Assembly (NCBI GenBank): GCA_902775075.1
Contig: CACYKX010000037.1
Location: 1 to 17,880 of the forward strand
Length of the DNA: 17,880 nt
Origin: an uncultured Prevotellaceae bacterium
Lineage (GTDB): Bacteria; Bacteroidota; Bacteroidia; Bacteroidales; Bacteroidaceae
Direction of reading: 5' to 3'
Part shown: piece after piece, positions 3,425-17,532 of the stretch
Position numbering within the stretch: the stretch's first letter is position 1
Layout of the letters: the number at the start of each line of letters is the position of its first letter
Position numbers and translations under genes: made by a program
The notes under the pieces: model-generated
Told to the model about the DNA's origin: nothing
What the model saw: the letters and a program-made list of their open reading frames with translations, nothing else
Database searches by the model: none

Positions 3425-4441
3425 TTAGAGTTTCAGAAGCTTTTTTATGGATTTACCCTTTATGAGAGTAGGTGACATCAAAATTTGCGAGTGTATCTCT
3501 CTACCATTCTCAATACTTCCAATCAATATTTTTACAGCCGATTGGCCAATCCCCTTCAATGGTTGTGCGATACGTGTGATGGGTGGATCAAAATAGTCAA
3601 GATACCTAAGATTATCGAATGAAATAATAGATATATCTTCAGCAATGCCCAGACCAAATTCCTTGAGCGCCTGCAAAGAGCCTAGAAGAATGGTATTGCT
3701 CATGGCAAAAATAGCTGTAGGCTGCGGATCTAGCAATTTCAACAGGCGGGTCTGCAGATATCCGTTATCGATAGAGAACTCGTTGCCACGGAAATAAATA
3801 TTACAGTTCTTGCCTAGCTCTTTGACGGCTGCCTTGCATCCCCGTTCCCTTTCTTTCGTTGTTATTGAAATCGAAGGACCTTCTATGCAGAGAATGTTGC
3901 GGTGCCCCCCTTTGATCAACTCTTTCATTGCCATATATCCCCCATCGAAGTTGTTTGTTGAAATATAAGGCAATTTCGATTTCTTGAAGTATCTGTCCAC
4001 AAGAATTACTGGAATGTGCTTTTGCATCTCCTCCAATTCTTGAGTTCTCCCACCGCAAGGTACAATCACTATTCCATCAACTTTCCTGTGCCTCATTTCG
4101 TATAGAGCTTCTAATTCTGTGGTTCCGTTCTCTTGAGTATCAAAAATAGAAACAGAGTAATTGTACTTTCTTGCCTCCGCAATAATAGAAGCCGATAAAT
4201 TTGCAAAAAAAGGATTGCTTATTGAAGGTACTGCTAAACCTATCGTCTTATTAGAATCGTTGCGCAAACGTTGTGCGGTCTCATCCACGTCTTCACTGAT
4301 CAGTTTATAGATAGACATTACCATTCTCTGAGTAGTGTCAGAAACCCTGTATTCATCGGCTTTTCCATTGAGAATTCTTGATATGGTAGTTTTTGAGAAT
4401 CCAGTCAAACGCGATAATTCAGAAAGTGTCCCTCGTTTCAT
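3425..4441 (-). CDS. LacI-family transcriptional regulator
   Basis: The 338-residue protein has an N-terminal LacI-type helix-turn-helix and hinge (residues 1-50, with TLSELSRLTGFSKTTISRI and LNGK) followed by a periplasmic-binding-protein-like sugar-sensing core (about 60-330). An upstream in-frame ATG at 4465 adds eight residues, but it lies inside the best promoter -7 element (4463-4470). The ATG at 4441, giving MKRGTLSELS, is therefore preferred and gives the usual LacI N-terminus. The gene is divergent from ribokinase with 150 bp between starts, the typical position for a local repressor. It probably binds sites in that gap and releases them with ribose, ribose-5-phosphate or a related inducer. 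Use of a LacI regulator instead of a hybrid two-component or ECF sigma/anti-sigma system suggests sensing of a simple cytoplasmic sugar. Confidence 0.92.
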   Translation of the reverse strand: MKRGTLSELSRLTGFSKTTISRILNGKADEYRVSDTTQRMVMSIYKLISEDVDETAQRLRNDSNKTIGLAVPSISNPFFANLSASIIAEARKYNYSVSIFDTQENGTTELEALYEMRHRKVDGIVIVPCGGRTQELEEMQKHIPVILVDRYFKKSKLPYISTNNFDGGYMAMKELIKGGHRNILCIEGPSISITTKERERGCKAAVKELGKNCNIYFRGNEFSIDNGYLQTRLLKLLDPQPTAIFAMSNTILLGSLQALKEFGLGIAEDISIISFDNLRYLDYFDPPITRIAQPLKGIGQSAVKILIGSIENGREIHSQILMSPTLIKGKSIKKLLKL

Positions 4442-4451
4442 ATTTTCGTTG

Positions 4452-4473
4452 TTTTTTGGCAACAAAATTAAAA
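4452..4473. repeat. Direct-repeat copy 1, candidate LacI operator over the regulator -7 box
   Basis: A T-run followed by GGCAACAAAATTAAAA matches 4480-4501 at 19 of 22 positions, 28 bp away. Its core can also be read as an inverted pair, TTTTG (4454-4458) and CAAAA (4463-4467). It covers the regulator's own -7 box and predicted start site, so binding would repress it. The operator role is inferred. Confidence 0.45.
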
Positions 4474-4591: not shown

Positions 4592-5509
4592 ATGGAAAGA
4601 ATAAACAAAGGAAAACTTATCGTAGTAGGAAGTGCAAATACCGACTTGGTAATCCATGCTCCACACTTCCCACAGCCGGGAGAAACAGTCATTGGTGACG
4701 GCTTCATGACAAATTTCGGTGGAAAAGGAGCCAATCAAGCAGTAGCTGCTGCCAGACTTGGAGTTTCTACCACTTTTGTAGGGAAAGTCGGCTCTGATGA
4801 ATTTGGCAAGGCGACGGTAGCCCATCTTATCAAAGAAGGGATTGACGTAAGCCATCTATACACATCTCCCAATAAGCCGTCAGGGGTGGCACTAATCACA
4901 ACTGTAGATGGTGGCGAGAATAGCATCGTAGTAAACTCGGGAGCGAACTTCGACTTAACCGTAGAGGATATAGAAAAGGCAGAAGATGCTTTCACCAGTG
5001 CCTCCATCGTTTTGATGCAATTAGAGACCCCTGTAAATGCTCTTGTAGCGGCTGCTAGATTAGCAAAATCTCATGATTGCTACGTTGTTCTTAACCCTGC
5101 TCCTGCTCCCAAAAGACAACTTCCACAAGAATTACTACAAAACGTAGATCTGCTGATTCCAAATGAGACAGAGGCTTCTGCTATCTCGGGCTGCGAGATT
5201 ACAGACACGAGCACTGCAATGCAGGCCATTGGCATCATTCAGAAGACTGGGGTGAAAGACGTAATTATCACGATAGGATCAAAAGGCGCCATTGCTTCGA
5301 TTGAAGGCAAGCCTACTTTGATTCCAGCCTTTAAAGTTAAAGCGGTTGATACTACTGCAGCCGGTGATACATTTTGCGGAGCTTTATGTGCCGCGCTAAT
5401 CAACGGATCAGACAAACGATCAGCTTTGACCTTTGCCAACAAAGCTTCTTCTATCTCTGTCACTAAAGCAGGAGCACAAATATCAATGCCGCATCTTAGT
5501 GAAATGTAA
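4592..5509 (+). CDS. rbsK: Ribokinase (PfkB family)
   Basis: The 305-residue cytoplasmic enzyme phosphorylates ribose with ATP to ribose-5-phosphate, feeding the pentose phosphate pathway and nucleotide synthesis. The N-terminal PfkB signature contains GSANTDLV (13-20), PGETV (29-33) and GGKGANQAVAAARLG (43-57), all typical of ribokinase rather than fructokinase. The C-terminal signature DTTAAGDTFCGAL carries the catalytic Asp259, and the glycines before it form the anion hole. Length matches the family (about 300-310). It is the first gene of the forward run and the permease ATG lies 25 nt after its stop. Its place beside a LacI regulator and a SusC/SusD pair is the main reason to call this a ribose locus. 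A kinase for another pentose or nucleoside is possible but less likely given the signature. Confidence 0.93.
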   Translation: MERINKGKLIVVGSANTDLVIHAPHFPQPGETVIGDGFMTNFGGKGANQAVAAARLGVSTTFVGKVGSDEFGKATVAHLIKEGIDVSHLYTSPNKPSGVALITTVDGGENSIVVNSGANFDLTVEDIEKAEDAFTSASIVLMQLETPVNALVAAARLAKSHDCYVVLNPAPAPKRQLPQELLQNVDLLIPNETEASAISGCEITDTSTAMQAIGIIQKTGVKDVIITIGSKGAIASIEGKPTLIPAFKVKAVDTTAAGDTFCGALCAALINGSDKRSALTFANKASSISVTKAGAQISMPHLSEM

Positions 5510-5534: not shown

Positions 5535-6548
5535 ATGTTTATTGTAAATAGTTACACTTTAGCCATAGTGCTCTGTCTCATCACTATGCTTTGCTGGGGA
5601 TCCTGGGGAAACTCGCAAAAACTCGCTGCTAAATCCTGGCGATATGAGTTGTTCTATTGGGATTATGTCATCGGAATGGTAATATTTGCCCTGATAATGG
5701 CCCTGACACTTGGTAGTTTTGGTGAGAGGGGCCGCAGTTTTTTGGAGGATATTGCCCAGGTATCAGTTGCGTCTGTTATCTCTATCCTGGTTGGTGGAGT
5801 TGTTTTCAATGGATCTAACATTCTTTTGTCGGCTTCGACTAGCCTGGCTGGCATGTCTGTAGCATTCCCTCTTGGCGTTGGCCTTGCATTAGTAATTGGG
5901 GTTTTTGTGAACTACTTTGGCTCACCCAAGGGAGATCCTGTATTGCTATTCCTTGGAGTTGCGTTCATCGTTATTGCCCTTATTTTCAATGGAATAAGCT
6001 CTGCAAAGAAAGGTAGTGATACTGCTACGGACAGAAGTAGGAGTAGTAAGGGAATAATGCTTGCTGTTATTTCAGGTGTATTGATGGCTTTCTTCTATCG
6101 CTTTGTTGCAGCAGCCATGGATCTTGACAACTTCGTACATCCTGCTGTCGGAAAGGCAACGCCTTACACAGCATTCTTTATTTTCTCTATTGGAGTCCTG
6201 CTCAGTAACTTTGTCTTCAATACAATTCTGATGCGCCATCCTGTTGATGGGAAACCAACGAACTATAAAGAATATTTCCAGGGAAGCGCTAAGACCCATT
6301 TGGTAGGAATGCTGGGTGGTGTAATCTGGGGACTGGGCACTTTGTTCAGCTATATTGCCGCTGGCAAGGCTGGTGCCGCAATATCCTATGCTTTAGGTCA
6401 AGGCGCACCAATGATAGCAGCTTTGTGGGGCGTGTTTGTATGGAAAGAATTCCGTGGTGCCGGTAAAGTTGTAAATCGCCTACTTACTTTGATGTTCATC
6501 TTCTTTATTGTCGGTCTTAGCTTAATTGTTGCGGCTGGCAACCAATGA
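5535..6548 (+). CDS. Inner-membrane sugar permease, GRP/RhaT-like DMT superfamily (probable ribose uptake)
   Basis: The ATG at 5535 gives a 337-residue protein whose N-terminus enters a membrane helix at once. An in-frame start at 5433 would overlap ribokinase by 77 nt and add a charged, non-membrane leader, so it is rejected. About ten hydrophobic segments can be drawn (near residues 5-22, 40-60, 76-95, 100-122, 130-150, 170-190, 207-228, 255-275, 280-300, 312-335), as in the glucose/ribose porter and L-rhamnose permease branches of the drug/metabolite transporter superfamily. CWGSWGNSQKLAAKSWRYEL near the N-terminus and SYALGQGAPMIAALWGVFVW near the C-terminus are typical of that group. It follows ribokinase closely, so it probably brings periplasmic ribose into the cell for phosphorylation. 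Specificity is inferred from its neighbours. Confidence 0.82.
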   Translation: MFIVNSYTLAIVLCLITMLCWGSWGNSQKLAAKSWRYELFYWDYVIGMVIFALIMALTLGSFGERGRSFLEDIAQVSVASVISILVGGVVFNGSNILLSASTSLAGMSVAFPLGVGLALVIGVFVNYFGSPKGDPVLLFLGVAFIVIALIFNGISSAKKGSDTATDRSRSSKGIMLAVISGVLMAFFYRFVAAAMDLDNFVHPAVGKATPYTAFFIFSIGVLLSNFVFNTILMRHPVDGKPTNYKEYFQGSAKTHLVGMLGGVIWGLGTLFSYIAAGKAGAAISYALGQGAPMIAALWGVFVWKEFRGAGKVVNRLLTLMFIFFIVGLSLIVAAGNQ

Positions 6549-6620: not shown

Positions 6621-9569
6621 ATGAAAATCGATGTATTCCACAAAAAGGCATCTTCTTTTCGGTATTTGATTGCCTTATTGATGCTATTCTGTTTAAACCT
6701 GTGTGCGACCCAAGTCTTTGCGCAAAATGTGAATGGAACTGTTAAAGACGAGAATGGGGATCCCCTAGGTGGAGTGACCGTGACCATTAAGAACGGTCCT
6801 ACCGGTGTAGGTACTGTCACCGATATGGATGGCAATTACTCGATAAAGGCGAACAACGGCCAGACCTTACTTTTCTCTTTCATAGGTTTCAAGACTGCAG
6901 AAAGAAAAGTAACAGGAAGCCAGCTATCCGTATCCATGGAACCTGACAACGAGAATCTGGATGAAGTCGTTGTTATTGGTTATGGCACCGCAACAAAGAA
7001 AGAGATAACAGGATCGGTGGCAACTATTGGTCGTGACGATATGAATGTCGGTACTTTCACCAATGCCATGGGGTTACTCCAGGGTAAGGTGGCTGGATTG
7101 TCAATTGTCAATCCTAATGGTGCTGACCCAACCGCTTCTTACGAGGTACTCCTTAGAGGAACCAATACTCTTTCGGCAGGACAGGGGCCATTAGTGATTA
7201 TTGATGGAGTTGTAGGAGCTGACATTCGAAATGTGAATTTTGAGGATGTCGAGTCGGTAGACGTTCTTAAGGATGGTAGCGCAGCCGCTATTTATGGTAC
7301 ACGCGGAACAAATGGTGTCATCATCGTAACAACAAAGCGTGCAAAAGCCGGACAGACGGAGGTCACCTACGATGGACAGCTGACCGTTTCCTCCGTGGCC
7401 CATAGGGCAAAGCCTCTCACAACATCACAATTCAAGGATGTGATAAACACTTACCGTCCAGAACTGAGCAACTACATCTATAACGGCGATACTGACTGGT
7501 TTGACGAAATTACACGCACACCTTTCAGCCACAAGCATACAATAGGTATCTCTGGCGGAAGCCAGCTGTTCTCTCATCACACATCTCTTAATTACGAGAA
7601 AAGCGAAGGGTTGCAGAAGAAAAACGACGTAGAAAAGATGATGGCGACAACTAATATCCGTCAGAAGCTTTTCGATGGCTGGTTGGATATTGACTATAAC
7701 TTATCAATAGTGCACCGTGCTTATACTCCCTCGTTAACTTCCGCTTTCCAGCAGGCATTTACTCACAACCCCACAGAGTCTGTCTACGACCCGACGAACA
7801 CAGAAGCTGGTGGCTATAGCCGCACTGTGGCTATGGAATATTACAACCCTGTCGCAATGGTTAATGAGAGAAGTGCCAAGACAAAGGATGACAACTATGG
7901 CGGCAATATACGTTTGTCGTTAAACATAAAGCCCATTCCGGGACTTAAGTGGGATAATTTTATTGCTTTCAACAAAGAAGCTACAGAGAATCATACCTAT
8001 TATTCTCACTACTATCCTTCTTTAATCGGAACCAATGGACAAGCTACGATAGAGGATTACCATTGGACCGATCGTCAGTATGAGTCAACTTTGAACTATA
8101 ACCATGAATTTGGCAAGCACTCCTTACAGGCTCTTTTAGGCTATACCTACGAGTACAGTAAAAACAACACCCACAAATCGACTAACAATGGATTCGATTT
8201 TGATGATCTTTATACCAACGATATAGGTTCAGGCACGGGTCTTACAAAAGGAACTGCAAGCATGTACTCATACAAGGAGTCAAATAAGTACATTGGCTTC
8301 TTTGGCCGCGTGATGTACAATTACGACCAGCGTTACCTTCTCAGCTTAAGCTTGCGCCGCGATGGAAGCAGCCGGTTTGGCGCAGACCAGAAATGGGGAT
8401 GGTTCCCCGCTGTTAGCTTAGGTTGGCGTATCAGCCGTGAGGCTTTCATGCAAAATATAAAGTGGATCGACGACCTTAAGCTGCGCGTTGGGTATGGTGA
8501 GACTGGCAACCAAGACTTTGCCAACTACAAGTCATTGATGCTGATGGGCGTTGCTGGAAAGTTCTATTATAATGGCAGTTGGATAAACACATATCAGCCT
8601 GTGAGCAATGCCAATCCTAACTTGCAATGGGAAAAGAAAAAAGAGTTTAACGTTGGTGTAGATTTCTCCGCTCTGGGAGGACGTATCACTACAACTCTTG
8701 ATTATTATTATCGTCACACGACCAACTTGCTTTACAACTATTCAGTTCCTACACCTCCCTACGTGTATGATGAACTCTTCACTAATGTTGGCGAGATTAC
8801 CAATCAGGGTATTGAACTTACAATAGGAGCCATTCCTGTGAAGACTCATGACTTCATGTGGAGTACTACATACACACTCTCACACAACAAGAATAAACTC
8901 AAGAAGTTTACTAACGATGAATTCCAGAATGGTACGTACCGGGTGGGTTGGTCACACTCTGCTGCCGCCTACACACAACGTCTTATAGAAGGACAAAGTC
9001 TTGGTACTTTCTACGGTCCGAAATTTGTTGGTATTGAGAATGGAGCTGAAGTCCTTGAGGGACAGGATGAGGATGGAAGTGTTCCTGAAAATGACTGGAT
9101 AAAGATCGGTAATGCCTATCCCGATGTACAGATGGGATGGAGTAATACTTTCACCTACAAGCATTGGGATCTCAGCTTCTCCCTCCGTGCTTCTATCGGT
9201 GGTGATGTTCTCAATCAGTATGCCATGGAATACGAGAATCTCGGTTCTCTGGGTCTTCGTAATATCTCCCAGAAATGGCTCGACCACACAGAATTCACTT
9301 CCACGAAATATAAATACTCATCAAAGTACGTGGAAGATGCTTCATACTTGAAGATGGACAACCTCTCTCTCGGTTATACCTTCATACTTAACAAAACGTT
9401 CATAAAGCGCGTAAAGTTGTCTTTCACAGCACAGAACGTGTTCTGCATCACAGGATACAGCGGTGTTGACCCTGAGGTCGCCCTCAGCGGATTGGAGCCT
9501 GGAATAGAGAGCATGAGCTACTATCCCCGTACCACAGACTTCACTTTTGGCCTTAACATTACTTTTTAA
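6621..9569 (+). CDS. SusC-like TonB-dependent outer-membrane receptor
   Basis: This full-length 982-residue receptor imports the locus ligand across the outer membrane with energy from TonB-ExbB-ExbD. A signal peptide (1-35, ending FAQ) is followed by a carboxypeptidase-regulatory-like beta-sandwich (about 36-110), a TonB-box region (LDEVVVIGYGT, 113-123), the plug domain (about 125-240, with VIIDGVVGADIRN and GTNGVIIVTTKR) and a beta-barrel ending in the aromatic DFTFGLNITF typical of outer-membrane proteins. The SusD-like partner starts 10 nt after its stop. The 72-nt gap before it shows no promoter match, so it is probably co-transcribed with ribokinase and permease. Only the N-terminal and plug regions can be compared with the truncated receptor at 1018, and these are clearly different sequences, so this is not a recent duplicate. 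Confidence 0.95.
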   Translation: MKIDVFHKKASSFRYLIALLMLFCLNLCATQVFAQNVNGTVKDENGDPLGGVTVTIKNGPTGVGTVTDMDGNYSIKANNGQTLLFSFIGFKTAERKVTGSQLSVSMEPDNENLDEVVVIGYGTATKKEITGSVATIGRDDMNVGTFTNAMGLLQGKVAGLSIVNPNGADPTASYEVLLRGTNTLSAGQGPLVIIDGVVGADIRNVNFEDVESVDVLKDGSAAAIYGTRGTNGVIIVTTKRAKAGQTEVTYDGQLTVSSVAHRAKPLTTSQFKDVINTYRPELSNYIYNGDTDWFDEITRTPFSHKHTIGISGGSQLFSHHTSLNYEKSEGLQKKNDVEKMMATTNIRQKLFDGWLDIDYNLSIVHRAYTPSLTSAFQQAFTHNPTESVYDPTNTEAGGYSRTVAMEYYNPVAMVNERSAKTKDDNYGGNIRLSLNIKPIPGLKWDNFIAFNKEATENHTYYSHYYPSLIGTNGQATIEDYHWTDRQYESTLNYNHEFGKHSLQALLGYTYEYSKNNTHKSTNNGFDFDDLYTNDIGSGTGLTKGTASMYSYKESNKYIGFFGRVMYNYDQRYLLSLSLRRDGSSRFGADQKWGWFPAVSLGWRISREAFMQNIKWIDDLKLRVGYGETGNQDFANYKSLMLMGVAGKFYYNGSWINTYQPVSNANPNLQWEKKKEFNVGVDFSALGGRITTTLDYYYRHTTNLLYNYSVPTPPYVYDELFTNVGEITNQGIELTIGAIPVKTHDFMWSTTYTLSHNKNKLKKFTNDEFQNGTYRVGWSHSAAAYTQRLIEGQSLGTFYGPKFVGIENGAEVLEGQDEDGSVPENDWIKIGNAYPDVQMGWSNTFTYKHWDLSFSLRASIGGDVLNQYAMEYENLGSLGLRNISQKWLDHTEFTSTKYKYSSKYVEDASYLKMDNLSLGYTFILNKTFIKRVKLSFTAQNVFCITGYSGVDPEVALSGLEPGIESMSYYPRTTDFTFGLNITF

Positions 9570-9579
9570 TTGAGAAAAA

Positions 9580-11109
9580 ATGAAAAAACTGTATATTTTC
9601 TTTTCAGCTGCATTAGCAATGCTTTGCGGTTGTACCAATCTTGATGAAGAGGTCTACTCAAACAAGGATATGGATCATTTCTTCACCAACGAGCAAGAAC
9701 TCATCTCGAATGCCGGCCGTGCCTATACCAAGATGCAAGGCTTCAATGGTGAGCAAAGCTTGTGGACGCTTTTGCTGCAGGCGTCTGATGAGTGTGCAGT
9801 TCCGGCGCATGGTGGCGAATGGTATAGTAACGGACGGTATGAAGAGGTACAGACCAACAACATTCCTTCTACGAATAAGCTCGTAAAGAAAGGCTGGGAC
9901 TGGATTTTCAACGGTATCGCCGCTTGCAATGAAATTATCTATGAGACAGAGCTCTCGTCTGTGGAGTTTGAAGCTAAGGATAAGATTCTTGCAGAGATAC
10001 GTGTGCTGCGTTGCTTCTACTACTATGAAGCAATAAGCGGATGGGGCAATGTACCTTTCACGGAAGACTACACCGAGACTGGATACCCCAAGCAGAAGTC
10101 GCGTAAGGAAGTGTATGACATCATCGAACAGGAAATCAAGGACAACATCCAGTACCTTGACGCTGCTCCTTCTAAAGAAAATTATGGCCGAATTACTCAA
10201 GCTGCCGCTTATACCCTACTTGCCAAGATGTATCTAAACTCAGAGGCTTGGTTTGGTACAGCCCGTTGGCAAGAGGCTGCTGACGCCTGCAAGCATATTA
10301 TAGATTCTGGCAACTACATCATCGAGGACAACTATGACACTAACTTCAACATCAACGATGATCAATCCAAGGAAAATATATTTGCCATAGTTTACGATAG
10401 AACATACACATCCACTGGTTCTACAGCATTCTACTTGCATACCCTTACTTTGGAGCCTGCTTCGGAAGCTACTTTCAACCTGCATGCTGGTCCTTGGGCT
10501 GGATTCCTGTGCGAGCCCGACTTCTTCCAGACTTACGACCCTGCAGACAAGCGTCTTGCACAGTCTTGGCTGTATGGTGAGCAGTACTCGTATACCGGAG
10601 AAGATCTGGGGTTTGCTTACGAGCCTGTATTCGATGAGTCAAAATACTACAACGCAAATGGTGGACGTGGTGACTACGACGGAGCACGCTGCCGTAAATG
10701 GGCTCCACAGACCGATGGCTCCATTACGAGCTACGACATCAGCCAGGATAATGACTTTGCCATCTTCCGGTATGCAGATGTTGTTTTGATGTATGTCGAA
10801 TCTCTCGTACGTCAAGGTAAGAGCGCCGAGGCTGCAGCTGTTCCCGATTTCCAAAAAATACGCACAAGAGCTGGACTTAAGCCTTATACTGCTAGCGAGT
10901 TGACTCTCGATGAGCTATATAAAGAACGCGGACGCGAAATGGCATGGGAAGGATGGAAACATGAGGACATGATACGCTTCGGAACATACCTGAAGAAGCA
11001 TTGGGCTCATCCAGACCAGAGCACAGAAACATGGCGTAACCTGTTCCCCATTCCTGCAGATGCAATCAATGCTAATCCTAACTTGAAACAGAACGAAGGT
11101 TATAACTGA
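9580..11109 (+). CDS. SusD/RagB-like surface ligand-binding lipoprotein
   Basis: The 509-residue lipoprotein is predicted to sit on the cell surface as the lid of the SusC receptor. It has a type II signal peptide with lipobox LCGC and lipidated Cys18, and an acidic stretch (TNLDEEVYS) right after it, as in surface-exported Bacteroidota lipoproteins. SusD-family marks include WDWIFNGIAACNEIIYE (about 108-124), EIRVLRCFYYYEAISGWGNVPF (helical TPR-like region) and the C-terminal DELYKERGREMAWEGWKHEDMIRFG. It starts 10 nt after the SusC stop. SusD proteins decide which ligand is captured but diverge quickly, so the ligand cannot be read from the sequence. Confidence 0.95.
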   Translation: MKKLYIFFSAALAMLCGCTNLDEEVYSNKDMDHFFTNEQELISNAGRAYTKMQGFNGEQSLWTLLLQASDECAVPAHGGEWYSNGRYEEVQTNNIPSTNKLVKKGWDWIFNGIAACNEIIYETELSSVEFEAKDKILAEIRVLRCFYYYEAISGWGNVPFTEDYTETGYPKQKSRKEVYDIIEQEIKDNIQYLDAAPSKENYGRITQAAAYTLLAKMYLNSEAWFGTARWQEAADACKHIIDSGNYIIEDNYDTNFNINDDQSKENIFAIVYDRTYTSTGSTAFYLHTLTLEPASEATFNLHAGPWAGFLCEPDFFQTYDPADKRLAQSWLYGEQYSYTGEDLGFAYEPVFDESKYYNANGGRGDYDGARCRKWAPQTDGSITSYDISQDNDFAIFRYADVVLMYVESLVRQGKSAEAAAVPDFQKIRTRAGLKPYTASELTLDELYKERGREMAWEGWKHEDMIRFGTYLKKHWAHPDQSTETWRNLFPIPADAINANPNLKQNEGYN

Positions 11110-11138: not shown

Positions 11139-13094
11139 ATGAGAAAGACTTTATTTTTCATCCTCTTTATTCTGTGTCTGCAGCCTATGCAGGCACAGAA
11201 AATTTCAAAAGCTGAACTAAAGGATAAGATTGCCGGTGCTTGGCTTGGGCAGATGGTAGGAAATATATATGGTCTGCCACATGAGAACAAATATATTGAC
11301 GACCCAGCACCAGAGTCTCGTTTTCCATTTGGATATACAAAGAATCTCGCAAAGTTGGAAAAGTACAATGGCGCTTTTTCCGATGATGACACAGATATGG
11401 AATATATCTATCTGGCTACAATGGAGAAATATGGAATCGAACCCACTTATACTCAAATGCGTGACATGTGGATGGCTCACGTCCGTGATCGCGTTTGGCT
11501 TGCCAACCGTGCTGCCGTGGGCCTAATGCATTACGGTTTCACTCCGCCTTTTACAGGTGACAAACTCTACAACCCTCATTGGTATCAGATAGATCCGCAA
11601 CTCATTAATGAAATTTGGGGTTATACGGCCCCTGGAATGGTCCATTATGCTGCTGAGAAAAGCCGTTGGGCAGCTCGCATTACAAGTGATTCCTGGGCTA
11701 TCAGTCCTACTGTATTGTATGGAGCAATGTTTGCCAAGGCATTCTTCTGCAATGATGTGAGACAACTTATCAAGGAGGGGCTTAAGGAACTGCCTAAAGA
11801 AGATCGTTTCACACAAGGTGTTTTGAAGGCTATCAGATTGCACGACCAATATCCCAACGACTGGGTGAAAGTGCGTCAGATCATGGCTAAAGAATTCTAT
11901 ATCGATGAGAATCCCATGACTAAGACCATCTGGAATGCTGACCTCAATGGTATCATGGGTGTGTTGGCTATGCTCTATGGCAACAACGATTTCCAACGTA
12001 CTCTTGACCTCGCCTGCGCACTGGGCTTCGATTGTGACAATCAGGCAGCAACCATTTCTGGACTCATGGCTGTCATTCATGGTGCCAGCTGGCTACCTAA
12101 GAATCTGACTATGCCTATAAAAGGTTGGACCAAGCCTTTTAATGACCGCTATATCAACATTACTCGCTATGACATGCCTGATGCTTCAATTGAGGATATG
12201 ATAGAACGTACATACAAACAGGCGTTGAATGTAATAGTCAAAAATGGCGGTAAGATCAAAGGCGATTACGTCTACATTAATCCCAAAGCCATTTTCACGC
12301 CGCCTATGGAATTCAGCGTCGGTCCTGCACCTGTATTGGAATTGGGTGAAAAGAGCGATTATTCCTTTGCATGCGTTACGAATGAGATGTACAACTGGAA
12401 AATGATTGAGGGGAAACTGCCCTCAGGCATTGTCTTTGTAAAAGGTAAATTACTGGGTACACCTCAGGAAACAGGATCGTTCCCTATAACGCTTGAACTG
12501 AGTTCGAAAGACAAAACCATCAAGAAGGATTTTACGATCATCGTCAAACCAAAGAACATCGCTCTGACGGCCGATACTATTTATGCCAACATACGAAAAC
12601 TCAACAAGGCCGTTCTTGATTCCTGCTGGATAACGTTCGGCCAGCCTATGTATGCAGACAGTGTAAACGTTATCAACGATGGCATAATACGAGGAGAAGG
12701 CTCCGTATTTTACTCTCTGGCAGCTAAGAGCAACTTACCTAAGATAGACTATTTCGGATATGGCTGGAAAGAGCCGAAGACAATTGGAATGCTTCAGCTC
12801 AACATGGGTTGCCTAGAAGAGTTTGGTGGTTGGTTCTCATCTTTGAGCATCCAGTATCTGGGCGATGACAACCATTGGTATGATGTGGGAAAATTCACAT
12901 CTGTTCCATATTTGCCAAAAACAGATATCGTATTCTTCCAACCACATTTTGCGCAATATTTATTCCAGTTCAAGCCTGTAAAGACAAAAGGTATACGCAT
13001 CTTGTTCGACGATAAGGTACAGGATCATTGGAATAAATACACTAAACATGTGTCATCTTTTATATCAATCACTGAATTAGGCGTTTATGAATAA
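11139..13094 (+). CDS. Exported ADP-ribosylglycohydrolase-fold protein with Ig-like and discoidin-like C-terminal domains (copy A)
   Basis: The ATG at 11139 gives 651 residues with a signal peptide (1-20, ending MQAQ); a TTG at 11124 is in frame but less likely. Residues about 24-370 match the DraG/ARH (ADP-ribosylglycohydrolase) fold. KIAGAWLGQMVGNIYGLP opens the domain, SDDDTDM (81-87) is the N-terminal metal motif, and DCDN (298-301) followed by ISGLMAVIHG is the C-terminal one. The classical enzymes use these Asp residues to hold Mg2+ and cleave N- or O-glycosidic bonds to ADP-ribose. Residues about 395-470 resemble a putative-Ig (He_PIG) domain (WKMIEGKLPSGIVFVKGKLL). About 475-651 look like a discoidin-like (F5/8 type C) sandwich that may bind sugar. 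It starts 29 nt after SusD and its end overlaps the next gene by 8 nt. Export is unusual for a family best known inside cells. Confidence 0.85.
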   Translation: MRKTLFFILFILCLQPMQAQKISKAELKDKIAGAWLGQMVGNIYGLPHENKYIDDPAPESRFPFGYTKNLAKLEKYNGAFSDDDTDMEYIYLATMEKYGIEPTYTQMRDMWMAHVRDRVWLANRAAVGLMHYGFTPPFTGDKLYNPHWYQIDPQLINEIWGYTAPGMVHYAAEKSRWAARITSDSWAISPTVLYGAMFAKAFFCNDVRQLIKEGLKELPKEDRFTQGVLKAIRLHDQYPNDWVKVRQIMAKEFYIDENPMTKTIWNADLNGIMGVLAMLYGNNDFQRTLDLACALGFDCDNQAATISGLMAVIHGASWLPKNLTMPIKGWTKPFNDRYINITRYDMPDASIEDMIERTYKQALNVIVKNGGKIKGDYVYINPKAIFTPPMEFSVGPAPVLELGEKSDYSFACVTNEMYNWKMIEGKLPSGIVFVKGKLLGTPQETGSFPITLELSSKDKTIKKDFTIIVKPKNIALTADTIYANIRKLNKAVLDSCWITFGQPMYADSVNVINDGIIRGEGSVFYSLAAKSNLPKIDYFGYGWKEPKTIGMLQLNMGCLEEFGGWFSSLSIQYLGDDNHWYDVGKFTSVPYLPKTDIVFFQPHFAQYLFQFKPVKTKGIRILFDDKVQDHWNKYTKHVSSFISITELGVYE

Positions 13095-14700
13095 TAATAG
13101 AAGAATATTCATTTTTGCAGTTATGTCAGCCGTTTTCGCAACGGCTGGCATAGCACAATCTGTGAAGCTCACCACCGACCAGCTTATGAATAAGATCAAA
13201 GGTGGTTGGGCAGGACAAACCATAGGTGTGGTCTTTGGAGCTCCATACGAGTTTAAATTTACTGGATCTTACGTTCAGGATTACCAGCCTGTACCTTGGA
13301 GCAGACATTATATTCTATATTGGTGGAACAAAAAGCCCGGTCTTTTTGATGATATTTACAATGATTGCACTTTTGTTGAGGCTTTCTCCCAATTGGGTAT
13401 CGACTGTACACAAAAACAACTTGGCCACCGTTTCGCCTACGCTGATTATCATTTGGCTCATGCCAATCAGGCAGGACGTTACAACATACGGCAAGGAATC
13501 GAGCCACCCGAGTCTGGCAACTGGAGGAACAATCCTCACGCCGACGACCTTGACTTCCAAATAGAGGCCGACTTTATAGGCTTAATGACCCCTGCCATGG
13601 TCGGCCAGGCACAGCAGGTAGCTGACAAAGTTGGGCATATCATGAACAGCGGTGACGGATTTTACGGTGGTGCCTTTGTAGCGGCAATGTACAGCAGTGC
13701 ATTTTACCTCAATACACCGAAAGAAATTATCACTGCAGCTTTGGCAACGATTCCACAGGAAAGCCAGTTCTATAAATGCATAAGCGATGTTGTAGCCTTC
13801 CACGATGCACACCCGCAAAATTGGAAAGACTGCTGGTTCATGCTTCAAGACAAATGGAATAAGGATGTAGGATGCCCCAAGGGCGTATTCCTAAGTTTCA
13901 ATATCGACGCTAAATTCAATTCCGCCCTCGTAGCCATGGCTATGCTCTATGGAAATGGCGACATCACTGAGACTCTGGATATCGCTGCCCGGGCAGGACA
14001 AGACTCTGACTGCAACCCTTCAACATGTGGAGGAGTGCTGGGAGTAATGCATGGATATGATAACATTCCTGCATTTTGGCTCGACCCACTGAAAGAAATC
14101 GAGGACTCGACCTTCCAAAATACGGATATGTCGCTGGCCAGATCCTACACCATGAGTTATGACCTTGCCTTGAAATATATCAAGCGTAATGGAGGAAAAA
14201 TCGGTAAGAAAGATGTTGAGATTCCTATCGTCAAAGCCCCTGTATTATCGCTGGAACAGAATTTCCCCAACACATATCCTCTTTTCCGTGAACGCAAGGA
14301 CTGTTTTGTAGACAAGGATTATGAATTCAACTTTGATGGCAATGGCTTCGTTATCTGGGGCAACCTTTGTTGTTTGAGGAATATCAACAAGGACTACATC
14401 AACCGTGTGTCCATCAGACACATTGGCTCAGAGGTGTTCAGCATGACTGAGCCCGACGACCCCTATGTTGCAAAAGTGGAGGTTTGGATAGACGGTAAAC
14501 TGGATTGCACGGCAGAGATGCCTATGAAAGGGCAAAATCGCAGAGTAGAGCCGGCATGGAAATACGATCTTCCAGAGGGACATCACAAGGTTGTGCTAAA
14601 ATGGCTGAACCCTGACCCGATGTATACCATCAGGATAAACGATATTCAATATTATTCAGCAAACCCGCAACACCCAAGATTTTACTCTAACTTGAATTGA
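13087..14700 (+). CDS. Exported ADP-ribosylglycohydrolase-family protein (copy B)
   Basis: The 537-residue protein has a signal peptide (1-24, ending GIAQ) and opens with DQLMNKIKGGWAGQTIGVVF, the start of the ADP-ribosylglycohydrolase domain (about 28-370). HANQAGRYNIRQGIEPPESG and NNPHADDLDFQIEADFIGLM mark a subfamily common in Bacteroidota. The C-terminal metal motif is well kept (DSDCN, Asp306 and Asp308, then GGVLGVMHG). At the N-terminal site it reads FDDIYND (87-93) where classical members have [ST]DD[TS][DE], so metal binding may differ. About residues 415-530 form a likely beta-sandwich (VEVWIDGKL, HHKVVLKWLN) that may bind ligand. It overlaps copy A by 8 nt (TATGAATAA), suggesting translational coupling. 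It is much closer to copy C than to copy A. The actual substrate is unknown. Confidence 0.87.
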   Translation: MNNNRRIFIFAVMSAVFATAGIAQSVKLTTDQLMNKIKGGWAGQTIGVVFGAPYEFKFTGSYVQDYQPVPWSRHYILYWWNKKPGLFDDIYNDCTFVEAFSQLGIDCTQKQLGHRFAYADYHLAHANQAGRYNIRQGIEPPESGNWRNNPHADDLDFQIEADFIGLMTPAMVGQAQQVADKVGHIMNSGDGFYGGAFVAAMYSSAFYLNTPKEIITAALATIPQESQFYKCISDVVAFHDAHPQNWKDCWFMLQDKWNKDVGCPKGVFLSFNIDAKFNSALVAMAMLYGNGDITETLDIAARAGQDSDCNPSTCGGVLGVMHGYDNIPAFWLDPLKEIEDSTFQNTDMSLARSYTMSYDLALKYIKRNGGKIGKKDVEIPIVKAPVLSLEQNFPNTYPLFRERKDCFVDKDYEFNFDGNGFVIWGNLCCLRNINKDYINRVSIRHIGSEVFSMTEPDDPYVAKVEVWIDGKLDCTAEMPMKGQNRRVEPAWKYDLPEGHHKVVLKWLNPDPMYTIRINDIQYYSANPQHPRFYSNLN

Positions 14701-14717
14701 TAAACACTGACATTACT

Positions 14718-16235
14718 ATGAAAAGAATAATACTGTTGCTTCTGATAGCCGTATCAACTGTGCCGTCATGTATAGCGCAGATTCCCTACGGCAAGAAATT
14801 TGCTTTGGACAAAGCAACTCTCCTCGACAAAATAAAAGGAGGTTGGGCTGGACAGACCATCGGTTGTACATATGGTGGACCTACAGAATTTAAATACAAA
14901 GGTGGAATCATACCTTCGGAAGAACCCATACCTTGGCATGATGCTTATTGCAAAGATATATTTGAGGAAGACCCTGGGTTATACGATGATGTTTACATGG
15001 ACTTGACAGTACTGCAGGTGATGCAGCGTGAGGGCATCAATGCCTCTGCTGCATCGTATGCAAATAGCTTTGCGCATGCTAAATATAAGTTATGGCATGC
15101 CAATCAGGCTATGCGTTACAATGTGCTGCACGGCATCATGCCTCCTGAATCGGGTTATTGGCGCAATAATCCCCATGCTGATGATATCGATTTCCAAATA
15201 GAGTCCGACTTCATAGGTATGATATGTCCGGGCATGCCAAACGTGGCATCTACTTTTGCCGACACGGTCGGTCATGTCATGAATTATGGAGATGGTTGGT
15301 ATGGTGGTGTCTTCACTGCAGCAATGTACACGCTTGCGTATGTGAGTGATGACATTCCTACGGTTATCAGCGAGGCCTTACGCACTATTCCTGAAAATAC
15401 GGGGTTCCATAAAATAATAAAGGACGTATTGGATTTCTGGCATGAGCACCCTGACGATTGGACTGAATGTTGGCTGATGACACAAAAACGCTATGGCTTT
15501 GAGAAAGGATGCCCCGAAGGTGTTTTCAACGGTTTCAACATTGATGCCAAGATGAATGCTGCTTTCTGTGTTATTGGGTTGTTGTATGGCGGTGGAGACT
15601 TTTATCGCACAATGGACATTGCGACTCGATGTGGTAACGACTCTGATTGCAATCCGGCTACTGCAGCTGGCATTCTTGGTGTGATGCATGGCTGGAGCAG
15701 AATTCCTGAAAAATTCAGTAGGGGCATCGACTTGTGCGAAAATTATGATTTTCCGTACACGGATATATCTCTGTCAAAGGTGTATGGCATAAACCTTGAT
15801 TTGATGGCAAAAGTCTTGAAAGCCAATGGCGGAAAAGTCCACAATGATAAATATGAATTTACAATCCAAGAGCCCAAGGCTGTACGCTATGAACAGTCTT
15901 TCGAAGATTGCAGACCTGTGGAAAAAAGAGTGGTGAAATTTAAAATAGACCCAGTGCGCGAATTTGAGTTTAACGGCACAGGCTGTGTATTGATGGGAAA
16001 TGTAAGTACAGCCGACAGCGGAGGTGACGAAAGTTATGTCGCACACCTAGAAGCAAGCATTGACGGTAATGTAGTAGAAGAGATAGAGATGCCATACGAC
16101 TACATTACGCGTAAATATGATATTTTCTACCGCTATGGCCTCCCAAGAAGTAAGCACAAACTCTCCATAAAATTGTTGAATCCCGACCGGCACTTTGCCA
16201 TCCAATGCAGCGGATTAGTTGTCTATGATGAATAG
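14718..16235 (+). CDS. Exported ADP-ribosylglycohydrolase-family protein (copy C)
   Basis: The ATG at 14718 gives 505 residues; a TTG at 14697 that overlaps copy B by 4 nt is in frame but would put a polar stretch before the signal peptide. The leader MKRIILLLLIAVSTVPSCIAQ may be cut after IAQ or, less typically, lipidated at Cys18 (VPSC). The domain parallels copy B: LLDKIKGGWAGQTIGCTYGG, YDDVYMD (89-95), WHANQAMRYNVLHGIMPPES, NNPHADDIDFQIESDFIGMI and DSDCNPATAAGILGVMHG (Asp308, Asp310). Like copy B it lacks the Thr/Ser after the N-terminal Asp pair. A beta-sandwich with LEASIDGNVVEEIEMP ends the protein. Copies B and C clearly arose by duplication and then diverged, so they may cut different linkages. 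It overlaps the esterase gene by 8 nt. Confidence 0.87.
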   Translation: MKRIILLLLIAVSTVPSCIAQIPYGKKFALDKATLLDKIKGGWAGQTIGCTYGGPTEFKYKGGIIPSEEPIPWHDAYCKDIFEEDPGLYDDVYMDLTVLQVMQREGINASAASYANSFAHAKYKLWHANQAMRYNVLHGIMPPESGYWRNNPHADDIDFQIESDFIGMICPGMPNVASTFADTVGHVMNYGDGWYGGVFTAAMYTLAYVSDDIPTVISEALRTIPENTGFHKIIKDVLDFWHEHPDDWTECWLMTQKRYGFEKGCPEGVFNGFNIDAKMNAAFCVIGLLYGGGDFYRTMDIATRCGNDSDCNPATAAGILGVMHGWSRIPEKFSRGIDLCENYDFPYTDISLSKVYGINLDLMAKVLKANGGKVHNDKYEFTIQEPKAVRYEQSFEDCRPVEKRVVKFKIDPVREFEFNGTGCVLMGNVSTADSGGDESYVAHLEASIDGNVVEEIEMPYDYITRKYDIFYRYGLPRSKHKLSIKLLNPDRHFAIQCSGLVVYDE

Positions 16236-17532
16236 AAGAATGAATATATATTTTTATCGGATAGTTGTTGTCCTGACTACCATATTGGCTTTACCTTCAT
16301 GTGGTCAGGACAACACGACCGTTTCTGCGCCAATAACGTCGGACTCTGCTGATTGGCTGCCTGTAGAGATCGAAGACCTTAGTATCGCTAGCCGCATTCT
16401 TGGTCAAGATGTAGCTTATTCCGTCATCCTTCCACATGATTACTATTCTTCAGGAAAGTCATATCCTGTCGTTTATATGCTTCATGGGATAGGTGGTGAC
16501 CATGCCTCTTGGATGGAATATGGCAATGTGGCAAGGGTCATGGCCAATTTGCCCGTAGAGGAGGCCATCATCGTTAGTCCTGACGGTTACGAGTCTTATT
16601 ATAGCGACACGTATGACGACAAAGTGCGCTATCAGTCTTTTTTCTTGAAGGAATTAATTCCTACTATAGATAAGAACTTTCGTACATTGGCAAAACGCGA
16701 AGGTCGAAGTATCGTAGGATTTTCCATGGGTGGATTTGGAGCTTTGACTTTGGCATTAAAGCATATTGATACTTTCTCTGCAATTGCTGCCTTGTCTGCC
16801 TCAATACGAACAGACGAACAGTATATGACGGAAGGTCCTCAGAAAGATTGGAATTGGCAGTGGGGACGAATTTTCGGAGGCATCGGTCAGACAGGGCAGG
16901 GCAGACTTACCAGTTACTACAGGCAATGTAATCCGAAAGACATTTTGTCGAATATGGATACTAGCAAACTGAACGGGTTGCGCATCATGATAGATATTGG
17001 CGATCAGGAGACTAAACTTGCCGTTAGCAATAAAGAGCTACACGACGTACTTGTAAACAGGCATATAGACCATGAATGGGAGGTAAGACCAGGGGGACAC
17101 GACTTTCTGTGTTGGAACGCTGCCCTGCCAAAGGTTTTAGGTTTCTTCTTGCAAACTAGGGCTAAAGGAAGGACTATGACTTACCATAAGGGAGAAACAT
17201 CAAGCCTGTCAAATGCTATGTTGTTCATGCCACAAGCCAACCGACGCAGCCACCGCCGCTATCCAGTTTTGTATGTCACGGACGACAAAGATGGCAAATT
17301 CTCTGAAACACTGTCTAAGGTGGCCGACAGCCTATCCTCTACAGCCAAGATTTCGCCAATCATCATTTGCCAGCTTTACAAAAATGATATAGAGAACAAC
17401 ATTCTCGCTGTGGAAAGACAAAGCCCCGCCATCCGCATGGGTAAACGGTTCTACAGAATAATATCAGCTGCAAATGCACCAGCTGATATTGAGAACTGGC
17501 TAATTGACATTGACCATCAAATTCATAAATAG
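16228..17532 (+). CDS. Lipoprotein esterase (esterase D / PF00756 type) with a degenerate second half-domain
   Basis: The ATG at 16228 gives 434 residues and an 8-nt overlap with copy C, mirroring the copy A/B junction; ATGs at 16225 and 16240 are alternatives. A type II signal (ILALPSC, lipidated Cys25) anchors it to a membrane. Residues about 45-305 form an esterase-D-type alpha/beta hydrolase: YPVVYMLHGIGGDHASWMEY carries the oxyanion region, GFSMGGFGA holds Ser166, DIGDQE holds Asp259, and GGHDF holds His291. Relatives include acetyl-xylan and feruloyl esterases and S-formylglutathione hydrolase. Residues about 328-434 look like a second, cut-down copy: AMLFMPQANRR and RYPVLYVTDD mimic the first domain's VILPHDYY and YPVVYMLHG, but there is no Ser or His motif. 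It is the last gene of the run and probably removes acyl groups from the imported ligand. Confidence 0.85.
   Translation: MNRRMNIYFYRIVVVLTTILALPSCGQDNTTVSAPITSDSADWLPVEIEDLSIASRILGQDVAYSVILPHDYYSSGKSYPVVYMLHGIGGDHASWMEYGNVARVMANLPVEEAIIVSPDGYESYYSDTYDDKVRYQSFFLKELIPTIDKNFRTLAKREGRSIVGFSMGGFGALTLALKHIDTFSAIAALSASIRTDEQYMTEGPQKDWNWQWGRIFGGIGQTGQGRLTSYYRQCNPKDILSNMDTSKLNGLRIMIDIGDQETKLAVSNKELHDVLVNRHIDHEWEVRPGGHDFLCWNAALPKVLGFFLQTRAKGRTMTYHKGETSSLSNAMLFMPQANRRSHRRYPVLYVTDDKDGKFSETLSKVADSLSSTAKISPIIICQLYKNDIENNILAVERQSPAIRMGKRFYRIISAANAPADIENWLIDIDHQIHK

Follow-up and report, generated by a model that had tools for sequence, protein, structure and literature searches.

Within the window, by which we mean the whole analysed stretch of 17,880 nucleotides, profile searches and inspection of the translated reading frames identified the following genes (ARH, ADP-ribosylglycohydrolase):

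3425..4465, minus strand: LacI-type regulator (Peripla_BP_1/3 profile matches)
4592..5509, plus strand: ribokinase of the PfkB family (TIGR02152, 346.8 bits, cut-off 299.65)
5535..6548, plus strand: sugar permease, RusT-like by Pfam family (PF07168, 1.8e-27; PF06800, 5.1e-12)
6621..9569, plus strand: SusC-type TonB-dependent outer-membrane importer (TIGR04056, 784 bits; PF00593/PF07715)
9580..11109, plus strand: SusD-type surface lipoprotein (PF07980, 2.7e-30; PF14322; lipobox by eye)
11139..13094, plus strand: ARH-a, exported-type ARH-fold protein whose C-terminal part has Ig-like and CBM32-like domains (PF03747)
13087..14700, plus strand: ARH-b, exported-type ARH-fold protein with a C-terminal beta-rich domain (PF03747)
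14718..16235, plus strand: ARH-c, exported-type ARH-fold protein that clusters with ARH proteins present as single copies in other genomes (PF03747, 1e-37)
16225..17532, plus strand: esterase, probable lipoprotein by eye (PF00756, 8.8e-37)

The genes from the ribokinase to the esterase form a co-directional, compact run, and its coordinates make a single transcript likely, since the widest internal gap is 72 bases and two of the junctions overlap. The esterase overlaps the end of ARH-c and reaches 17532, beyond the interval of the original prediction; it is closest to the second of the two esterases in another locus, L006 (43.5% identity). The regulator is divergent, pointing away from the operon, with a probable ATG at 4441, and the likely starts of the permease and ARH-c were corrected to the ATGs at 5535 and 14718. 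The ribokinase and SusC/SusD pair looked for in a rus-type ribose polysaccharide-utilisation locus (PUL) were both found, the ribokinase scoring over the TIGR02152 cut-off and also passing PRK11142 (343 against 341). The permease is called RusT-like from sugar-permease Pfam families and not from the RusT sequence of Bacteroides thetaiotaomicron. The regulator is matched by the Peripla_BP profiles of Pfam, its LacI HTH profile scores under the cut-off, and its top NCBIfam match, RbsR (NF047341), is likewise under its own (199 against 382 bits). The SusC/SusD pair, esterase, ribokinase, permease and regulator that had been expected around the ARH genes are thus all matched by profiles.

The assembly of this genome comprises 2.94 Mb and is 88% complete. 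Searches of it returned no PF03747 protein beyond the three ARH genes, no PF01156 nucleoside hydrolase, no further ribokinase over the cut-off and no second copy of the permease. At the cytoplasmic end of the locus are the one permease copy found in the genome and the one ribokinase that passes the cut-off, in agreement with the earlier view of the locus as ribose-directed, and the locus is probably the organism's route for ribose, if ribose is used at all. Elsewhere in the window, at positions 159-1968, a BD-FAE-type esterase precedes a SusC-like ORF that is cut off by a stop after 316 residues; this is apparently the leftover of a different PUL.

Fold, export and active site of the ARH proteins

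All three consecutive ARH genes match PF03747 over its cut-off (4.2e-30, 2e-38 and 1e-37), as had been proposed, and the fold was modelled for two of the three proteins, with ADP-ribosylserine hydrolase ARH3 as the best match. To place these proteins among their relatives, species genomes were scanned; this returned at least 557 ARH-b relatives, the best 80 of which were taken as loci. As the loci were picked by ARH-b similarity, counts from them apply to close ARH-b orthologs only, and the denominators of the conservation counts are the loci long enough to judge.

Export of the three proteins had also been suggested, and each of them does begin with an N-terminal hydrophobic segment. By a crude hydrophobicity test, as distinct from a signal-peptide predictor, the segment recurs in the orthologs (ARH-a 62/62, ARH-b 65/67, ARH-c 71/73), and the same test was positive in 1/65 ribokinases and 2/36 regulators used as controls.

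The active site was compared in an alignment of 203 usable ARH ORFs from these best 80 of at least 557 loci (ARH-a label, 62; ARH-b, 68; ARH-c, 73; short contigs and antisense ORFs kept some loci from yielding the full set), together with YegU of E. coli and eight single-copy relatives. The catalytic Glu of ADP-ribosylhydrolases, in a GxxxGxPxE-type motif, and their four metal-binding Asp are invariant in 203/203 ORFs and in 8/8 single-copy relatives (Glu55, Asp88, Asp89, Asp306 and Asp308 in ARH-b numbering). In canonical ARH3/DraG enzymes, Thr residues beside the Asp pairs serve as metal ligands, and YegU has TDDT and DTDT at the two sites. These Thr ligands are absent from the proteins studied here: at the first site the residue preceding the Asp pair is Asp or Phe/Tyr, and at the second site Thr is replaced by Asn in 59 ARH-a and by Cys in 68/68 ARH-b, 73/73 ARH-c and three fusion ORFs. 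An NPH motif is likewise strongly conserved in each of the three clades; the residues after it are ADD in ARH-b and ARH-c and W in ARH-a. We read this pattern as a hydrolytic metal centre that is probably retained, with its chemistry or specificity altered; since both Thr ligands are replaced, catalysis by these proteins is not assured.

The fold raises the question of ADP-ribose scavenging, in which the ARH proteins would act outside the cytoplasm and detach ADP-ribose from NAD, poly(ADP-ribose) or proteins, leaving its breakdown to ribose to enzymes whose genes lie elsewhere. Besides the ARH3-like models, this is favoured by a weak sequence match of ARH-b to 6dre, the ADP-ribosyl hydrolase of a toxin/immunity pair, and by the first Asp pair, which we take from its motif to be the equivalent of Asp77/Asp78 of ARH3. 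That adjacent pair, which seems retained, is needed for ARH3 activity (PMC5552275). The exchange of the second-site Thr for Asn or Cys and the CBM32-like module on ARH-a argue against it. Furthermore, the window genes covered by the Pfam scan include no Nudix, phosphatase or nucleotidase, and none was recognised in the nine clusters examined out of 19 unlabelled gene clusters recurring in the best 80 of at least 557 loci (Pfam was used for two of the nine, inspection by eye for the others). Removal of ADP-ribose from proteins yields ADP-ribose, which is unusable for ribokinase. Overall, ADP-ribose scavenging appears quite unlikely.

The three ARH proteins fall into one clade each when compared with orthologs from the best 80 of at least 557 loci (support 0.996, 0.982 and 0.995 for ARH-a, ARH-b and ARH-c), and ARH-c clusters with the eight single-copy proteins (0.934). 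The genes thus seem to represent three separate old clades, rather than the simple triple copy first supposed. Three ORFs of 1173-1176 residues labelled ARH-a but carrying Cys (L028, L032, L038) are read as ARH-a/ARH-b fusions; together with the separate clades, they argue for three cooperating, non-redundant steps.

Conservation of the block and its wider relatives

The operon is near-fixed among the best 80 of at least 557 loci, which include members of Bacteroidales, Alistipes, Rikenellaceae, Paludibacteraceae, Cyclobacteriaceae and Gelidibacter. ARH-b is accompanied by ARH-a in 73/73 and ARH-c in 76/76 of the assessable loci, by SusD in 70/70, SusC in 67/67 and the esterase in 74/74, and by a ribokinase in 61/64. 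The permease occurs in 55 of 56, lying upstream in 30 and at the far end in 25, while a LacI-type regulator was found in 31/56 and a TPR-like gene in 17/56, one or the other being present in 48/56. In the same best 80, 104 esterase ORFs are spread over 75 loci, so that many loci have two. The block, which had been taken for a specialised variant, therefore recurs across all 80, as far as these reach. Pairwise identities follow those of ARH-b closely for ARH-c (Spearman 0.87), SusC (0.82), ARH-a (0.78) and SusD (0.76), and less so for the permease (0.65), ribokinase (0.56) and regulator (0.46); that the ribokinase and regulator track ARH-b least counts against a ribose reading.

Hosts of the block are gut, rumen and environmental bacteria, a spread that suggests no single substrate. 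A close ARH-b homolog (67%; P0014), known as a protein match alone, is named Bacteroides ovatus in the protein search, and Bacteroides is a genus with laboratory genetics.

Some local features were also observed. A gene for a lipoprotein-like protein of ~260 residues (L039:14630-15412 and relatives), with no Pfam match, lies near the operon end in 37/56 assessable loci of the best 80 of at least 557; the cluster is not represented in L005, and no ORF of at least 100 residues follows the esterase in the window. In Hallella multisaccharivorax (L005:13147-15215) the first esterase is seemingly in pieces, and the window retains a single esterase. At L024:11576-13382, ARH-b and ARH-c are separated by two ORFs, one of which is a Peptidase C10 ORF that also has an inhibitor I69 domain.

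Across wider genome sets the block stays together as a unit, yet its distribution is patchy. The ARH-a profile gave full-length matches in 11/393 genomes of the order, 3/399 of the family and 1/295 of the class, the last being the genome studied here, and was absent from every other drawn member of its genus; any match at E 1e-40 was seen in 37/393 genomes of the order, including one whose ARH-a is partial and interrupted by a stop. The ARH-b profile had some match in 71/395 genomes drawn from the phylum and exceeded 580 bits in nine, all eight besides the present genome being single ARH-c-like genes. PF03747 matched in 85/151 family genomes, with three adjacent genes only in the present genome and in G867 (L153).

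Of a further 52 loci (L115-L166), one (L153) has the full block again and two (L152, L155) encode canonical PF03747 proteins, leaving 49. A ribokinase and/or permease occurs in 12 of these (L115, L116, L119, L121, L122, L133, L134, L137, L144, L145, L158, L162), five of which also have a PF01156 nucleoside hydrolase (L116, L133, L134, L144, L145). These five lend some weight to nucleoside or modified-nucleoside scavenging, with the ARH proteins acting as exported N-ribosidases. We consider this unlikely, as a relative of that hydrolase was found in just 3/56 assessable three-ARH loci (best 80 of at least 557) and none in the present genome, and nucleosides would need neither an esterase nor a SusC/SusD pair.

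Neither ribokinase nor permease lies near the ARH gene in the other 37 of the 49 loci, some on short contigs. One single ORF (L149:7260-10757) joins an ARH-c-like domain to GH92 domains, another relative adjoins GH92 and GH125 genes, and in two loci (L150:2959-6213, L166:4843-8118) an ARH-c-like domain and FG-GAP repeats form one fusion, whose neighbour is a LacI-type gene similar to that of the window. On this evidence the ARH clade is not ribose-specific by itself, and it is the operon rather than the fold that supplies the link to ribose. The 37 loci and the GH92 associations would also suit cleavage of a non-ribose glycoside, with kinase and permease handling that sugar; the ribokinase, however, passes two equivalog cut-offs and is the sole one over the cut-off in its genome, making this very unlikely. 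Also seen was an ARH-a-like gene adjoining genes that by eye resemble those for glycogen branching/debranching enzymes (L124, L125, L126), and two other Bacteroidota genomes have four consecutive ARH-like ORFs near ABC sugar-transport-type genes (L127:8430-12842, L128:7865-11893).

Proposed role in ribose use and comparison with known systems

Acylated ribosyl glycoconjugates are favoured here over nucleosides, ADP-ribose or a non-ribose sugar, an esterified saccharide being pointed to by the esterase, the carbohydrate-binding module and the SusC/SusD pair. We infer that the SusC/SusD pair would capture a ribose-bearing, probably ester-decorated glycoconjugate and that the esterase, which may act on another target, would strip its acyl groups. 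ARH-a, ARH-b and ARH-c would be metal-dependent glycosidases differing in linkage or position specificity, with free ribose as end product; the permease would bring in the ribose, the ribokinase would phosphorylate it, and the LacI-type protein would keep the operon repressed in the absence of ribose or a derivative of it. We give this reading as a whole a probability of about 0.55. In its favour are the near-fixed operon of the best 80 of at least 557 loci, the sole ribokinase over the cut-off and sole permease of the 88%-complete assembly, in which no nucleoside hydrolase was found, the invariant Glu and Asp residues, the three clades and the fusion ORFs, the CBM32-like domain of ARH-a, neighbour identities that parallel those of ARH-b, and the 12 further loci with a ribokinase and/or permease. 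It is weakened by our finding no enzyme activity for any of its members. A more far-reaching proposal, put forward tentatively, is that the three proteins form an exported ribosidase class jointly dismantling an undescribed acylated ribose-containing glycan of gut, rumen and environment, their altered metal site and carbohydrate-binding module making them glycoside hydrolases and not ADP-ribosylhydrolases.

The original prediction was therefore right in part: ARH fold, export-type N-termini, position within a PUL and a ribose-directed cytoplasmic end are supported, and an arrangement special to one organism and a simple triple copy are not. It had the locus harvesting ribose from ADP-ribosyl or other ribosyl conjugates; the second is the better half of that guess, the first being opposed by the altered metal site, the CBM32-like module and the lack of an ADP-ribose-to-ribose enzyme among the scanned window genes. 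Were the ribosyl glycoconjugate reading true, the ARH fold, known mainly from enzymes that undo ADP-ribosylation, would have been recruited as a secreted sugar-cutting enzyme set, and scattered Bacteroidota would use a ribose-bearing nutrient that still awaits a name. Having three enzymes of a single unusual fold together in one PUL offers a direct handle on finding that nutrient.

Glowacki et al. (2020) reportedly described rus variants that differ in their hydrolases, ADP-ribosylglycohydrolases perhaps among them. Ribose PULs are already known from B. thetaiotaomicron, and we file the present locus as a variant of them. The B. thetaiotaomicron PUL, the ribose utilisation system (rus), is BT2803-2809, with the role of RusT given as putative (PMC12596196). 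Compared by description, the window resembles rus in combining, in a ribose-type PUL, a ribokinase with a SusC/SusD pair and exported hydrolases, and its RusT-like permease may correspond to RusT; it differs in having one ribokinase, a LacI-type regulator, three ARH-fold proteins with an esterase, and no nucleoside hydrolase. With the ARH3/DraG ADP-ribosylhydrolases (PF03747) the ARH proteins share the fold, the catalytic Glu and the four metal Asp, whereas their export-type N-termini, replaced Thr ligands, extra C-terminal domains including the CBM32-like one, and PUL context set them apart. The yegTUVW genes of E. coli (L004) similarly combine a transporter, a PF03747 protein and a sugar kinase in one run, but YegU keeps TDDT/DTDT and begins directly with the domain (by eye), SusC/SusD are absent and the regulator is of a different type. 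Also comparable are the single-ARH loci with ribokinase and permease (L116, L119, L121, L134, L145, L158 and others), where an ARH-c-like protein accompanies both; unlike the window, these have one ARH protein, a nucleoside hydrolase in 5/12, and SusC/SusD in some only.
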